Below, piece after piece: positions 37,069-41,183 of a stretch of DNA of 64,000 bases. Within the stretch, counting starts at the first letter, position 1, and each line of letters starts with the position of its first letter. The notes beneath the pieces are model-generated. The model searched no databases and was not told where the DNA came from. It saw only the letters and a list, made by a program, of their open reading frames with translations. A program made the translations under genes and the position numbers. The stretch comes from Candidatus Nitrospira neomarina (GTDB lineage: Bacteria > Nitrospirota > Nitrospiria > Nitrospirales > UBA8639): positions 3,651,001 to 3,715,000 of the forward strand of contig NZ_CP116968.1 in the NCBI RefSeq assembly GCF_032051675.1, in the 5' to 3' direction.

Positions 37069-37095
37069 AAAAAGGAAAAGAGGAGACTTCTCCTC
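37069..37095 (-). terminator. Rho-independent terminator after lipB
   Basis: On the minus strand the hairpin GAGGAGAAGTCTCCTC (37095 to 37080) follows the lipB stop directly and is succeeded by TTTTCCTTTTT. Confidence 0.75.
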
Positions 37096-37098
37096 GAT

Positions 37099-37803
37099 TT
37101 AGGTCTGTGATGATTCCAATTTTTTCTCGGTCCATTCTATTCCGAAAAGATCCGAAAAATGAGTTGCCACTTGTTCTCGTACATGTGCACCATCTACCAG
37201 TTTGTTAAGTAGTTTCTCCATTGATGTCATCACGCAATGGTCAATGCCACATGGTGTCAGCAACGTAAACGGTTGGAGATCGACGTTCACGTTTAAGGCA
37301 AATCCGTGCATGGTCACTCCACGGGAAATCCGTACGCCGATGGAGGCAATTTTTTCCATGCACCGGGCGGATGTGTTCACCCACACTCCCCGAAACGATT
37401 CGTGACGACATCCGGCAATCCCCCATTCCGCTAATGTGCGAATTAGGACCTCCTCTAATTGCTGGACATAGATTTTGGGACCGGGACAGAAATTGCGAAG
37501 TCGTAAAATAGGATATCCAATTATCTGTCCGGGGCCATGATAGGTCACGGATCCGCCTCGCCCGGTCTGATGAAGGTGGACCCCCATGTGCTGCAGTTCG
37601 GTCCAGCGAGGCTCCCAATGTTCAGACTTGGTTGTTCGTCCCAATGTGATGACAGGTTCGTGTTCGGTCAAGACCAATGTGTCGGGCCGACGGTCCTCAA
37701 GACGTTGGGTGACCAGAGACTGTTGAAGTTCCAAGGCTTCCGCATAGAGTAGCCGCGGAAACGTCAGCACCATTCCCGGTTGTCGAGAATCGGCAAAAGC
37801 CAT
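37099..37803 (-). CDS. lipB: Octanoyl-[acyl carrier protein]:protein N-octanoyltransferase
   Basis: Transfers octanoate from ACP to lipoyl domains, the first step of lipoate assembly. The protein has 234 aa. Signatures: TLGRTTKSEHW, QTGRGGSVTYHGPGQIIGYP, KIASIGVRISRGVTMHGFAL with NVNVDL, and the acyl-enzyme cysteine in LLTPCGIDHCVMTSM. The catalytic Lys (KIASIG) and Cys are in place. ybgC lies 12 bp upstream and the CARF gene 18 bp above that, all on the minus strand, so a three-gene transcript is likely, ending at the terminator at 37069-37095. Confidence 0.95.
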   Translation of the reverse strand: MAFADSRQPGMVLTFPRLLYAEALELQQSLVTQRLEDRRPDTLVLTEHEPVITLGRTTKSEHWEPRWTELQHMGVHLHQTGRGGSVTYHGPGQIIGYPILRLRNFCPGPKIYVQQLEEVLIRTLAEWGIAGCRHESFRGVWVNTSARCMEKIASIGVRISRGVTMHGFALNVNVDLQPFTLLTPCGIDHCVMTSMEKLLNKLVDGAHVREQVATHFSDLFGIEWTEKKLESSQT

Positions 37804-37815
37804 AGGAATGCGATC

Positions 37816-38220
37816 TCAGGAGGAAGTGAACCCTAGGGGGAGGCCCAGGACTTTCAGGATAGGAGGCGGGAGGCGTTTGATTCTGCCGTTTGTATCCACG
37901 GCCACAAGGGTTGCCGATCCTTCCACGACCAATCTTTTGCTGGTGCGATCTTTGATGACATGGGAAAACGTGAGAGACGTTCGTCGATCGGCCGCGACCG
38001 TCGTCTCGACCTCCAGGATGTCTCCATAGGTGGCGGCTGATCGATAGGAAAGTTCAGCGCGTATCACGCGAAATTCAGTTCCTTCTTGTATTAATGCGGC
38101 AACCGACAGGCCATGGTTATCCAAGTAATGCGTTCGGGCTCGTTCAAAGTATTTTAGATAGTTGGCGTAATAGACGACTCCTCCACAATCTGTATCTTCA
38201 TAATAGACCCGTACCTCCAT
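37816..38220 (-). CDS. ybgC: YbgC-type acyl-CoA thioesterase
   Basis: 134 aa hot-dog-fold thioesterase. The active-site block YYEDTDCGGVVYYANYLKYF holds the catalytic Asp (EDTD) and the Y-A-N-Y-L signature; YRSAATYGDILEVETTVA and VVEGSATLVAVD follow. YbgC hydrolyses short-chain acyl-CoA or acyl-ACP and is usually linked to the Tol-Pal system, which is not seen here. It is located between lipB and the CARF gene with very small gaps. Confidence 0.93.
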   Translation of the reverse strand: MEVRVYYEDTDCGGVVYYANYLKYFERARTHYLDNHGLSVAALIQEGTEFRVIRAELSYRSAATYGDILEVETTVAADRRTSLTFSHVIKDRTSKRLVVEGSATLVAVDTNGRIKRLPPPILKVLGLPLGFTSS

Positions 38221-38238: not shown

Positions 38239-39501
38239 CTACACATTCATGGTTGGAAATTCTGGAAGGTCGGTGGGAGCCACGCCACTTAATTTTATCA
38301 CCAGGTCATAGAGCTGGTGGTGGCGTTCGGGTTTAATGGGTTCAAATCCGTAACCCAGTAGGGCATGATCGGCGGCATCAAATAAGGATTTCATTTTAGA
38401 CCAATCCGTGACAAAGCGTTGCCCCATGGGATCTCCAAGGGCAGCCAACGCCTGAAATTGCGCCTGTAAAGGAAGGCGGTATTTCCCGTCAATTTCATTC
38501 AGATATTGCCTGCGACAGGTTTCTCGCAGGTCCTCAGGGAGTTGCTCGAGGTTCACATCCCAACTTTTCAAGTGATACTGGGTATACAAACGGGATTGAG
38601 CAAAGCCTTCCAAGGCTCGAAGGAGGACGTGAGTGGCAACTTCCAGATCACGCCCGCGATCTCCACGGCGTTTTGCCCATGCCAATAAGTCGAGAGCCAC
38701 GGCAGGCTTAATATCTTTCGAATCCAGCACAATTCGTTCAAGGAACGAGAGGTTTGCTTTGAGGAGGTGAATGAGGCGATCCATGCCCGGCGGTCCGCCC
38801 CACACAGAGGCCAGTTCCAAGGCTTTGATTCCGCCTTTTAATTTTTCCCAGGCCGGACGATACAGGAGTTGATCCCACAGGCCATAGCCCTGCGCCACAT
38901 CGGCTAGGGCACGATAAAAGGGTTTCAGCCCGCCGCTGATTCGATGTTCCAACGTGTGAAACCCTTTAACGGCCGCATCATAAGAACCATGATTGAAATG
39001 GTAACAAGTCTCGTGTCGTAGATGCGGCGCTTCTTCGTCCCAAGGATTGGCAGAGGCTTCAGATTGCGACAACAATTTGGTGATCGCTTCGACGGCCTGG
39101 TCAGCAGATGGAAAAGGGTGGCCGGGAAACGACAACACTTTGGTGGAAAAGGGAAATCCTGTCAGCACCATGGCGGAGGCCATGCCAACGGTCGCGCTGG
39201 TAATATCAATCACCAGTTCCCCGGGCATCACGTTCCAGGTCGTTAACAAGGGGCCAAGTCCATGGGCCAGGGCTTTCTGGCATGCAGAAAAACTTTCAGG
39301 GGAAGGGGTGAAGATCCAGTCCCAACGCTGTGGCATGCGTGACAAGGCCGGAGGGATCTGAGATTCCACCACCTGTTTATGGGACTCATGCAGAAAAAAA
39401 CATACCATGTCAGGATTCAAGTGCCGCACAATGGCGATGGCGGACGAAGGGTCGGCTTGAATGGCGAGTAGGAGTGCTTTGGTGGGGATATGGGCACTCA
39501 C
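38239..39501 (-). CDS. Stand-alone CARF-domain protein of the Cas02710/TIGR02710 family
   Basis: 420 aa. The N-terminal CARF-like Rossmann domain reads KALLLAIQADPSSAIAIVRH, PDMVCFFLHESHK and ELVIDITSATVGMASAMVLT, where family members have a D-x-T-G-G-T-K-x-M ligand loop. The middle RISGGLKPFYRALADVAQGY with LWDQLLYRPAW and the C-terminal DLLAWAKRRGDRGRDLEVAT, VLLRALEGFAQSRLYTQYHL and SWDVNLEQLPEDLRE are typical of Cas02710. Near the end, family members carry an RNxSILAHG HEPN motif; here it reads ADHALLGYG, so the catalytic Arg and His appear to be Ala and Tyr. No CRISPR array or other cas gene is in the window. It probably shares a transcript with ybgC-lipB. Confidence 0.82.
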   Translation of the reverse strand: MSAHIPTKALLLAIQADPSSAIAIVRHLNPDMVCFFLHESHKQVVESQIPPALSRMPQRWDWIFTPSPESFSACQKALAHGLGPLLTTWNVMPGELVIDITSATVGMASAMVLTGFPFSTKVLSFPGHPFPSADQAVEAITKLLSQSEASANPWDEEAPHLRHETCYHFNHGSYDAAVKGFHTLEHRISGGLKPFYRALADVAQGYGLWDQLLYRPAWEKLKGGIKALELASVWGGPPGMDRLIHLLKANLSFLERIVLDSKDIKPAVALDLLAWAKRRGDRGRDLEVATHVLLRALEGFAQSRLYTQYHLKSWDVNLEQLPEDLRETCRRQYLNEIDGKYRLPLQAQFQALAALGDPMGQRFVTDWSKMKSLFDAADHALLGYGFEPIKPERHHQLYDLVIKLSGVAPTDLPEFPTMNV

Positions 39502-39637
39502 AATGGGTCGACTATATCATCGGTGGAGGAGCCCGGCAAGAAAACCGATGCTGGATATTATGCTCTCAACGGCGAATTCCGGTATTTCTCTTCGCACAGT
39601 GTGAAATTTGATTCCTATCCTGATAGAATCGGCCACG

Positions 39638-40219
39638 ATGAATATTGATGCGGTTATTCAAGCCTTTGAAACCAGTGCCGATGTCAAAAATGAATTTATC
39701 CGGACCCACGCGGAACGTGTCGTTGAAATTGGTCAATTGCTGATCCGTGCATTTCGTGAAGGCCGAAAGGTCTTGCTCTTTGGGAATGGTGGGAGTGCGA
39801 CGGATGCCTCGCATCTTGCCGCGGAGTTTGTTGGCCGGTATCGACGCGATCGAGATCCCCTTCCTGCCCTGGCATTGGCCTGTGATATGGCTGCCATTAC
39901 CTGTATTGCGAATGATTATGACTATACAGATATTTTCTCACGGCAAATAAAAGCGCATGGCCGCAAAGGGGATGTGGCTATTGCCATTAGCACCAGCGGA
40001 AACTCCCTAAACGTGATCCGTGGTGTGGAAGCGGCCACGGACAGTGGCCTTGTCACTATAGCCTGGACAGGCGCCACCGGGGGTAAAGTAGGAGATCTCG
40101 TCGATTATTGTTTTCGAGTCCCTTCTTCGGTGACGGCACGTATTCAAGAATGTCATATTACGCTGGGTCACGTGTTGTGCGAATTTATTGAAGAGCGTCT
40201 TTTTGGTGATCAGGGCTAA
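39638..40219 (+). CDS. gmhA: Phosphoheptose isomerase / SIS-domain protein
   Basis: Converts sedoheptulose 7-phosphate to D-glycero-D-manno-heptose 7-phosphate for LPS core heptose. 193 aa from the ATG at 39638 (MNIDAVIQAFETS); the frame is open to 39608. SIS-fold blocks: KVLLFGNGGSATDASHLAAE with FVGRY, CIANDYDYTDIFSRQI, DVAIAISTSGNSLNVIRGVE and IQECHITLGHVLCEFIEE (metal His and Glu). It overlaps the next gene by 32 bp, so they are co-translated. The remaining heptose genes are not in the window. Confidence 0.92.
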   Translation: MNIDAVIQAFETSADVKNEFIRTHAERVVEIGQLLIRAFREGRKVLLFGNGGSATDASHLAAEFVGRYRRDRDPLPALALACDMAAITCIANDYDYTDIFSRQIKAHGRKGDVAIAISTSGNSLNVIRGVEAATDSGLVTIAWTGATGGKVGDLVDYCFRVPSSVTARIQECHITLGHVLCEFIEERLFGDQG

Positions 40220-41183
40220 ATCATTGCCGACCGGTACGTCTCCGAAGCTGAATCTCGCCCGGCTTCGCACCTACCCGCTTCAGACTCGTCATTCCAAAGT
40301 GAAAATGGCGGATTTTGGTTCACCCTGGCAGCGTGCTGGTTCCTTTCAAGCCTTCCTTAAAACCTTACCGGATATTTTAGCTGGCAAAACGTTCAGGGCC
40401 GTGGTGACGGCGATCGTTGAGGCCCGGCGACGGGGAAAACCGGTGATTCTGGGCATGGGGGCCCATCCGACCAAGGTCGGTCTCAATCCCATTGTCGTGG
40501 ACCTGATGCGCAAGGGTGTGATTACTGCCGTGGCCATGAATGGAGCCGTCATTATTCATGATTTTGAGATAGCCTACCTGGGGCAAACCTCGGAGGAGGT
40601 CGAAGCCGAAATTGATTCCGGACGATTTGGCATGGCAGAAGACACGGGACGCATATTAAATGAGGCGATTGTGCAGGGATGGCAACAGGGTTTGGGCATT
40701 GGAGAAGCGGTCGGCCGGTATCTTTTGAAGTATCCCAGGCAATTTCCACATCGGCGAAGGAGTTTGCTGGCGGCCGGTGCGCAACTTGGTCTTCCGGTCA
40801 CGGTGCATGTGGCGATCGGGACCGATATTATTCACATGCATCCCCAGGCAAATGGTGAAGCGATTGGTGGCGGCTCGTTATTGGATTTTCGCAAGCTCGC
40901 CGCAGTGGTGTCGAAGATGGAAGGGGGCGTGTATATCAATTTGGGATCAGCGGTCATGATGCCTGAAGTCTTTCTCAAAACCGTAACGTTGGGGCGGAAC
41001 CTGGGACGAGCCTTAAAGCAGATCACGACGGTCAATATGGATTTTCTCCCCCATTACCGGCCGATGACCAACGTCGTCAAACGGCCAACGCAAAAAGGTG
41101 GAAAGGGTTATGCGCTGACCGGCCATCATGAATTGATGGTTCCGCTTTTGGCTGCAGCCGTACTGGAGGCGCTTGAGAGGTGA
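40188..41183 (+). CDS. Conserved protein of unknown function paired with gmhA
   Basis: Up to 331 aa. Family blocks I remember from homologues beside heptose or SIS genes: TYPLQTRHSKVKMADFGSPW, GKPVILGMGAHPTKVGLNPI, AMNGAVIIHDFEIAYLGQTS, GRFGMAEDTGRILNEA, VTVHVAIGTDIIHMHPQANG, EGGVYINLGSAVMMPEVFLK and GYALTGHHELMVPLLAA. It looks like an alpha/beta enzyme with many conserved Asp, His and Gly residues. A weak resemblance to deoxyhypusine-synthase-like Rossmann proteins is possible but unproven. Because the N-terminal block matches homologues, the start must be upstream of ATG 40305; I use ATG 40188, overlapping gmhA. Linkage suggests sugar-phosphate metabolism. Confidence 0.75.
   Translation: MKSVFLVIRAKSLPTGTSPKLNLARLRTYPLQTRHSKVKMADFGSPWQRAGSFQAFLKTLPDILAGKTFRAVVTAIVEARRRGKPVILGMGAHPTKVGLNPIVVDLMRKGVITAVAMNGAVIIHDFEIAYLGQTSEEVEAEIDSGRFGMAEDTGRILNEAIVQGWQQGLGIGEAVGRYLLKYPRQFPHRRRSLLAAGAQLGLPVTVHVAIGTDIIHMHPQANGEAIGGGSLLDFRKLAAVVSKMEGGVYINLGSAVMMPEVFLKTVTLGRNLGRALKQITTVNMDFLPHYRPMTNVVKRPTQKGGKGYALTGHHELMVPLLAAAVLEALER

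Follow-up and report, generated by a model that had tools for sequence, protein, structure and literature searches.

The window analysed here, which is the whole 64,000-nucleotide stretch of DNA from Candidatus Nitrospira neomarina, contains the gene of a TIGR02710-type CARF-6H-HEPN protein that is likely a disarmed and repurposed Csm6-type effector of Nitrospira-type bacteria. Proteins that combine CARF and HEPN domains are generally taken for immune effectors. Judged by its residues, this one has very probably lost the canonical RNase reaction, and a role other than CRISPR immunity is quite likely. The finding is judged to be genuine: a protein of a known kind has been repurposed across a whole lineage, and this is undescribed in the searchable literature. 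Text searches returned no paper describing a disarmed Nitrospira Csm6, an earlier mention in CARF classification work being possible, and two type III surveys that were consulted do not mention Nitrospira.

Family, fold and neighbourhood

The open reading frame has bounds of exactly 38239-39501 on the minus strand, starts with GTG and comprises 420 codons (420 aa), with a HEPN domain predicted to be catalytically dead. The plus-strand translation of 38239-39501 has many stops and is not open. A sequence-only reading had placed the protein in Cas02710/TIGR02710, and this placement holds, as the TIGR02710 model is matched at 102.8 bits against a cut-off of 83.9 (residues 24-405). All 62 aligned members match the same NCBIfam model at E <= 0.001. 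Pfam recognises the Csm6 6H domain (PF22205, E 2e-9, residues 163-252) and the Csm6 HEPN domain (PF09670, E 6.9e-17, residues 268-404), and the PADLOC model PDLC01812, named “CARF1--CARF_HEPN”, matches at 529 bits over residues 4-419. PDLC01812 scores 832 bits against the Nitrospira defluvii homologue and 372 and 144 bits against two copies with intact motifs (L074 and L047, respectively); a third intact copy, L081, is unlisted at 1e-20. The protein is not a new family, since NCBIfam and PADLOC models already capture these sequences and label them CRISPR-associated or candidate defence.

Three domains follow each other in the order typical of the Csm6 fold, as seen from the Pfam matches and the predicted structure together: a Rossmann-like CARF domain (residues 8-150, 39052..39480, minus strand) located by model secondary structure and VIA-align, a 6H helical linker (residues ~151-262, 38716..39051, minus strand) matching PF22205, and a pseudo-HEPN domain (residues ~263-420, 38242..38715, minus strand) matching PF09670 and, structurally, the Csm6 HEPN. 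Structure prediction and comparison with Csm6, which the sequence-only reading had proposed as a check, bear the assignment out. The AlphaFold2 model made from the 62-sequence alignment (pLDDT 89.9, pTM 0.79) has Thermus thermophilus Csm6 (TtCsm6) as its nearest solved structure (Foldseek E 5.6e-9). VIA-align superposes the two with Z 21.0 and an rmsd of 7.0 over 377 residues; so high an rmsd is no surprise for a multi-domain protein whose domains are arranged differently in the structure it is compared with. The next matches are the cA6-type Csm6 proteins of Enterococcus and Streptococcus (VIA Z 17.2 and 16.5), and the CARF half (residues ~6-153) aligns with Can2, Card1 and Cam1 at VIA-align Z 12-14. 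A single-sequence phmmer search of the PDB found no relative, and an alignment-profile search was needed to reach TtCsm6 (E 2e-16). The CARF-6H-HEPN architecture is common to the window protein and TtCsm6 (PDB 5FSH, 8JH1, 8JBB) over the whole length; the differences are an identity of only ~17%, the replacement of R415/N416/H422 by A/D/Y and of K137 by V, and the absence of a type III partner genome-wide.

The neighbours lipB, ybgC and gmhA, named earlier from the sequence, are confirmed by Pfam. A ybgC-type thioesterase (37816..38220, minus strand; PF13279, E 4.8e-15) lies 18 bp downstream of the CARF gene, and lipB (37099..37803, minus strand; PF21948, E 7e-44) begins 12 bp beyond ybgC. Upstream and divergent is a gmhA-type SIS isomerase (39608..40219, plus strand; PF13580, E 9e-24). 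Just upstream of the CARF gene sits a promoter-like site (39511..39539, minus strand; TTGCCG-17-TATAGT, 9/12, with TG before the second hexamer), which is a consensus match only, as is the terminator-like hairpin with a T-rich tail directly after lipB (37080..37095, minus strand). A single CARF-ybgC-lipB transcript is plausible, and the hairpin is consistent with it. The 64-kb window has no CRISPR-like array, as had been noted before.

Several features of the surroundings can be recorded. Beside gmhA, window positions 40188-41183 (plus strand) encode a protein that is well conserved throughout the order (55-99% identity), matches no Pfam family at 1e-5 and, by reading, may resemble deoxyhypusine-synthase-like proteins. 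The gap between the CARF gene and ybgC is 370-540 bp in many loci of one related family (f3). In Ca. Nitrospira defluvii a short open reading frame (L087, 5585-5974, minus strand) separates the CARF gene from ybgC; by reading it is four-helix-bundle-like and resembles a 23S intervening protein.

Altered HEPN and CARF motifs

The motifs read earlier as ADHALLGYG and DITSATVGM are confirmed at residues 377-385 and 99-107, respectively. In the HEPN half, A-D-H-A-L-L-G-Y (residues 377-384, 38350..38373, minus strand) replaces R-N-x-S-I-L-A-H. A profile alignment places A377/D378/Y384 of the window protein on R415/N416/H422 of TtCsm6, in which each of R415A, N416A and H422A abolishes RNase activity (PMC10897365, PMC4748810). 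The R-x4-6-H catalytic motif of active HEPN ribonucleases is thus absent, and the earlier claim that the catalytic residues are lost is upheld. The loss is not due to chance, as 67 distinct homologues share it: the HEPN Arg (R377) occurs in 0/67 homologues of the window's clade. Intact R and H residues placed elsewhere by the alignment would have spoken against the claim; the three positions map directly onto the TtCsm6 active site. A shifted active site was also considered and rejected, since 64/67 homologues have no relocated Arg within residues 371-383.

The dead site is itself fixed as A...G.G.F, with A377 in 64/67 homologues, G383 and G385 in 67/67 and F386 in 66/67. The Asn position varies among N/D/H/S/Y/Q and the His position among H/Y/G/Q/A/N, and the two change together, the dominant pairs being N-H (26/67) and D-Y (17/67), as though their side chains were still in contact. 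In apo TtCsm6 the residues equivalent to this Asn/His pair form a hydrogen bond (PMC10897365).

The protein might still be an active RNase through altered chemistry, with another residue replacing the HEPN Arg and with a toxin-like or housekeeping function. The His is kept in 43/67 homologues, and R278, R295, Q302 and R393 are found in all 67; against this, the window's own lineage retains neither the Asn nor the His, D288, R292 and Y349 have disappeared as well, residues 371-383 contain no Arg in 64/67 homologues, and R415A by itself inactivates TtCsm6. Such activity is very unlikely overall; since 43 of the 67 homologues keep the His, 26 of them together with the Asn, a weak or altered nuclease activity outside the window's genus is conceivable.

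The CARF motif is altered as well. Residues 99-107 (39181..39207, minus strand) read DITSATVGM where intact homologues have DYTGGTKPM, and all 11 intact homologues have G103 and K105, neither of which occurs in any of the 67 members of the window's clade. Hence the CARF motif (D/N)-x-(S/T)-x3-(R/K) is incomplete: D99 (kept in 66/67) and T101 are present and K105 is not. In the profile alignment V105 of the window protein falls on K137 of TtCsm6, and K137A abolishes cA4 binding (PMC10897365, PMC4748810). The motif-I glycine G15 is found in only 5/67 homologues.

The data support a loss of cA4-type binding. The clade consensus D-[LI]-[TS]-G-A-T-P-A-M aligns with N-L-S-S-A-T-P-Q-I of the cA6-binding Csm6' of Streptococcus; because of this resemblance to cA6-type Csm6', the Lys loss, which removes a cA4-type contact, is compatible with binding of another ring nucleotide, and such binding may persist. 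In Enterococcus italicus Csm6 (EiCsm6), replacing Asn10, Thr114, Gln116 and other residues with alanine lowers cA6-dependent activity or all but abolishes it (PMC7101355). With EiCsm6 numbering carried over via the Csm6' alignment, the Thr114 position is T in 55/67 and S in 10/67 homologues, and the Gln116 position is mostly Ala or Gly. The earlier argument from the CARF loop therefore stands as regards the lost Lys and is weaker than implied as regards loss of ligand binding. The cA6-type Csm6 proteins of Enterococcus italicus and Streptococcus thermophilus have the fold and the S-A-T-P loop in common with the window's clade but are active R-x4-H RNases, and they differ at the Gln116 position.

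These features bear on whether the protein is a cyclic-oligoadenylate sponge, ring nuclease or decoy, whose CARF domain would damp the type III signalling of passing plasmids or phages while the dead HEPN renders binding harmless. The CARF fold and D99 are retained, the S/G-A-T-P loop is like that of cA6-type Csm6', and Csm6 ring nuclease activity is known to reside in the CARF domain (PMC10897365, PMC7101355). However, the Lys required for cA4 binding by TtCsm6 is gone throughout the clade, G15 is rare, the Gln116 position is seldom retained, 53/55 carriers have no Cas10, and the window's genome has no SMODS cyclase. This reading is unlikely, if slightly less so than an RNase of altered chemistry.

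Descent, constraint and CRISPR context

The distribution was followed in a relatives sample of 60 genomes (the window's genome and close relatives) and in a phylum-wide sample. The gene is present in 47/60 relatives: 34/37 genomes of the window's own family (f1), 11/11 of f3, 2/8 of f2 and 0/4 of f4. Across the phylum, 55/56 genomes of f1/f3 carry it, and nearly all genomes of other families have either no copy or distant, intact relatives. Since it is missing from most f2 and all four sampled f4 genomes, the gene is dispensable to the order. Named carriers include Nitrospira moscoviensis, Ca. N. defluvii, N. lenta and Nitrospira sp. CG24A, CG24C and CG24D. The conservation of gene order, suggested earlier as a check, is seen for ybgC, which is next on the same strand in 66/75 outside loci; lipB is likely the third operon gene in the window's genus. 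A divergent gmhA lies upstream in 63/71 outside loci.

In the tree, the window's clade is one group (support 100/100, stem 0.91) whose neighbour is a set of intact copies from the f19 lineage; distant outgroups are long-branched, and only this core/f19 split was used. Pairwise distances track those of gmhA (rho 0.77), the 40188-41183 gene (rho 0.83) and ybgC (rho 0.66). The gene is single-copy and vertically inherited in the order, in a largely conserved position between gmhA and ybgC. A recent horizontal arrival was rejected, as the tree, the synteny and the correlated distances all speak against it. In one genome bin there are two almost identical copies on different contigs (L049, G003:C8:1395-2654, and L003, G003:C220:814-2073) with the same neighbours and 96% and 98% identity to the window protein, probably a strain mixture in the bin.

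Selection on the gene is evident. Overall dN/dS (omega) is 0.04-0.15, with 0.04-0.12 in the HEPN half, and nearly all homologues are full-length open frames without stops. Nineteen positions are invariant across the 11 intact homologues, and seven of these (G103, K105, D288, R292, Y349, R377 and A383) are kept in 0/67 members of the window's clade. Class-specific residues have been gained at W60, D61, A108, P194, W234, D260, K265, K312, W314, K340, Q348, A377, G383 and Q396; those that are near-invariant in the clade and absent from the intact homologues include W60, D61, P194, W234, K265, K312, W314, K340, Q348 and Q396. As read from the alignment, this joint loss and new fixation is the pattern of changed function rather than decay. 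A decaying relic would explain the lost catalytic motifs, the variable Asn/His positions and the patchy presence in f2 and f4, but not the low omega in both halves, the open frames or the fixed new residues; purifying selection led to its rejection, and it is very improbable.

The window's genome, a complete single contig of 4.80 Mb, has no Cas1 and no Cas10 above the cut-off; the type III locus close by outside the window that would have spoken against the earlier reading was thus not found. Its one sub-cut-off Cas10 match was considered as a source of cyclic oligoadenylate and rejected, as the protein is, by reading, an HDOD-GGDEF protein. On these searches and that for arrays in the window, the protein does not have the Cas10 or cas genes that mark a type III ancillary effector. 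True Cas10 (>60 bits) occurs in 2/55 f1/f3 carriers of the phylum sample (G036 and G172), and two genomes of the relatives sample (G025 and G026) also have it in addition to a degenerate copy. Three of these four type III-bearing carriers (G025, G026 and G172) possess a further, distant copy whose RN..LAHG and (S/G)GTK motifs are intact (L047, L048 and L081); in G172 it is located ~11 kb from Cas10. The intact second copy is presumably the working effector.

The f19 lineage (L074-L077) has a sole copy with ~35% identity and intact motifs, and Cas10 is present in 4/5 carriers. The presence of Cas10 with intact (4/5) versus degenerate (2/55) copies differs with a Fisher p of 0.00015, which is descriptive only, representing one phylogenetic contrast. 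The f19 copies and the window protein are of equal length and have the C-terminal LPxFPxLxL in common; the f19 copies differ in having intact RN...LAHG and DYTGGTKPM motifs and a site beside nadK/rho/prfA/murA instead of gmhA/ybgC. In L074, L075, L076 and L078 the intact Csm6-type gene lies beside nadK and/or rho-prfA-murA, and f19 loci with readable context have no cas genes in the stretch read. In f19, then, a conserved effector is unlinked from its CRISPR locus, with Cas10 elsewhere in 4/5 genomes.

An ordinary type III effector could act in trans with CRISPR loci elsewhere in the genome or in other strains. All 62 aligned sequences carry the TIGR02710 name, PADLOC has a CARF_HEPN model for the cluster, and in the sister lineage unlinked copies with intact motifs occur in genomes that have Cas10. 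Catalytic and ligand residues are nevertheless lost clade-wide, Cas10 is present in only 2/55 carriers, and most type III-bearing carriers have a separate intact effector, so that action in trans is highly unlikely. The cluster has been seen before as TIGR02710/PDLC01812, a name implying a CRISPR-associated RNase effector, which is contradicted by the residues and genomic distribution of the window protein.

Proposed origin and role

The disarmed, repurposed effector probably arose as follows. On the branch to the Nitrospira order, an intact-motif ancestor like the f19 sister copy would have lost the HEPN Arg together with CARF contacts of the cA4 type. The disarmed gene would then have settled beside gmhA/ybgC and acquired new invariant residues, with vertical, single-copy inheritance thereafter, almost always without Cas10. 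The suggested sequence begins with an effector that is no longer linked to its CRISPR locus and continues with Cas10 loss and then loss of catalysis; we infer the relative order of the last two.

Csm6 acts as a dimer. Speculatively, the CARF cleft of such a dimer would bind a nucleotide or an RNA end from the cell, and RNA or a protein partner would be bound by the HEPN/6H half, which would not cleave, giving a ligand-gated binding switch rather than an enzyme. R278, R295, Q302 and R393, invariant in the clade, are candidate residues of the RNA- or partner-binding surface. Binding of nucleic acids has been proposed for HEPN domains in which the conserved charged and polar residues are missing (PMC3710099). 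A CARF domain outside CRISPR is likewise found in RtcR, an RNA repair regulator whose ligands are tRNA 5' fragments with a cyclic phosphate end (PMC7790460). The window protein does not have the RtcR-type architecture (CARF, AAA+ sigma54 activator and HTH), its effector half being different and without AAA+ or HTH, and no rtcBA neighbours were seen. A ligand-gated RNA- or protein-binding mechanism is tentative and less likely than not. More doubtful still is an order-wide housekeeping signalling role, in which CARF would sense a nucleotide or RNA end unrelated to CRISPR and the HEPN dimer, itself dead, would pass the signal on by binding RNA or a partner, in step with ybgC/lipB or gmhA. The sequence-only reading of a domesticated sensor rather than an active RNase is borne out as far as domestication, predicted inactivity and the missing CRISPR partner are concerned; sensing is a proposed function.

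There are consequences for annotation. In each Nitrospira genome, roughly one gene that is apparently dead receives a CRISPR-associated or candidate defence label from PADLOC and from TIGR02710, which is an “equivalog” model. Such labels would inflate counts of orphan effectors, and systematic mis-annotation in Nitrospira genomes is likely. According to one study, where type III subtypes have lost signalling by cyclic oligoadenylates, CARF-HEPN proteins tend to disappear as well (PMC12669027). Here a whole order has kept the protein after the apparent death of its active site, mostly without Cas10. This would be an exaptation of an immune receptor, open to direct tests in nitrite oxidisers and comammox bacteria that are in culture.
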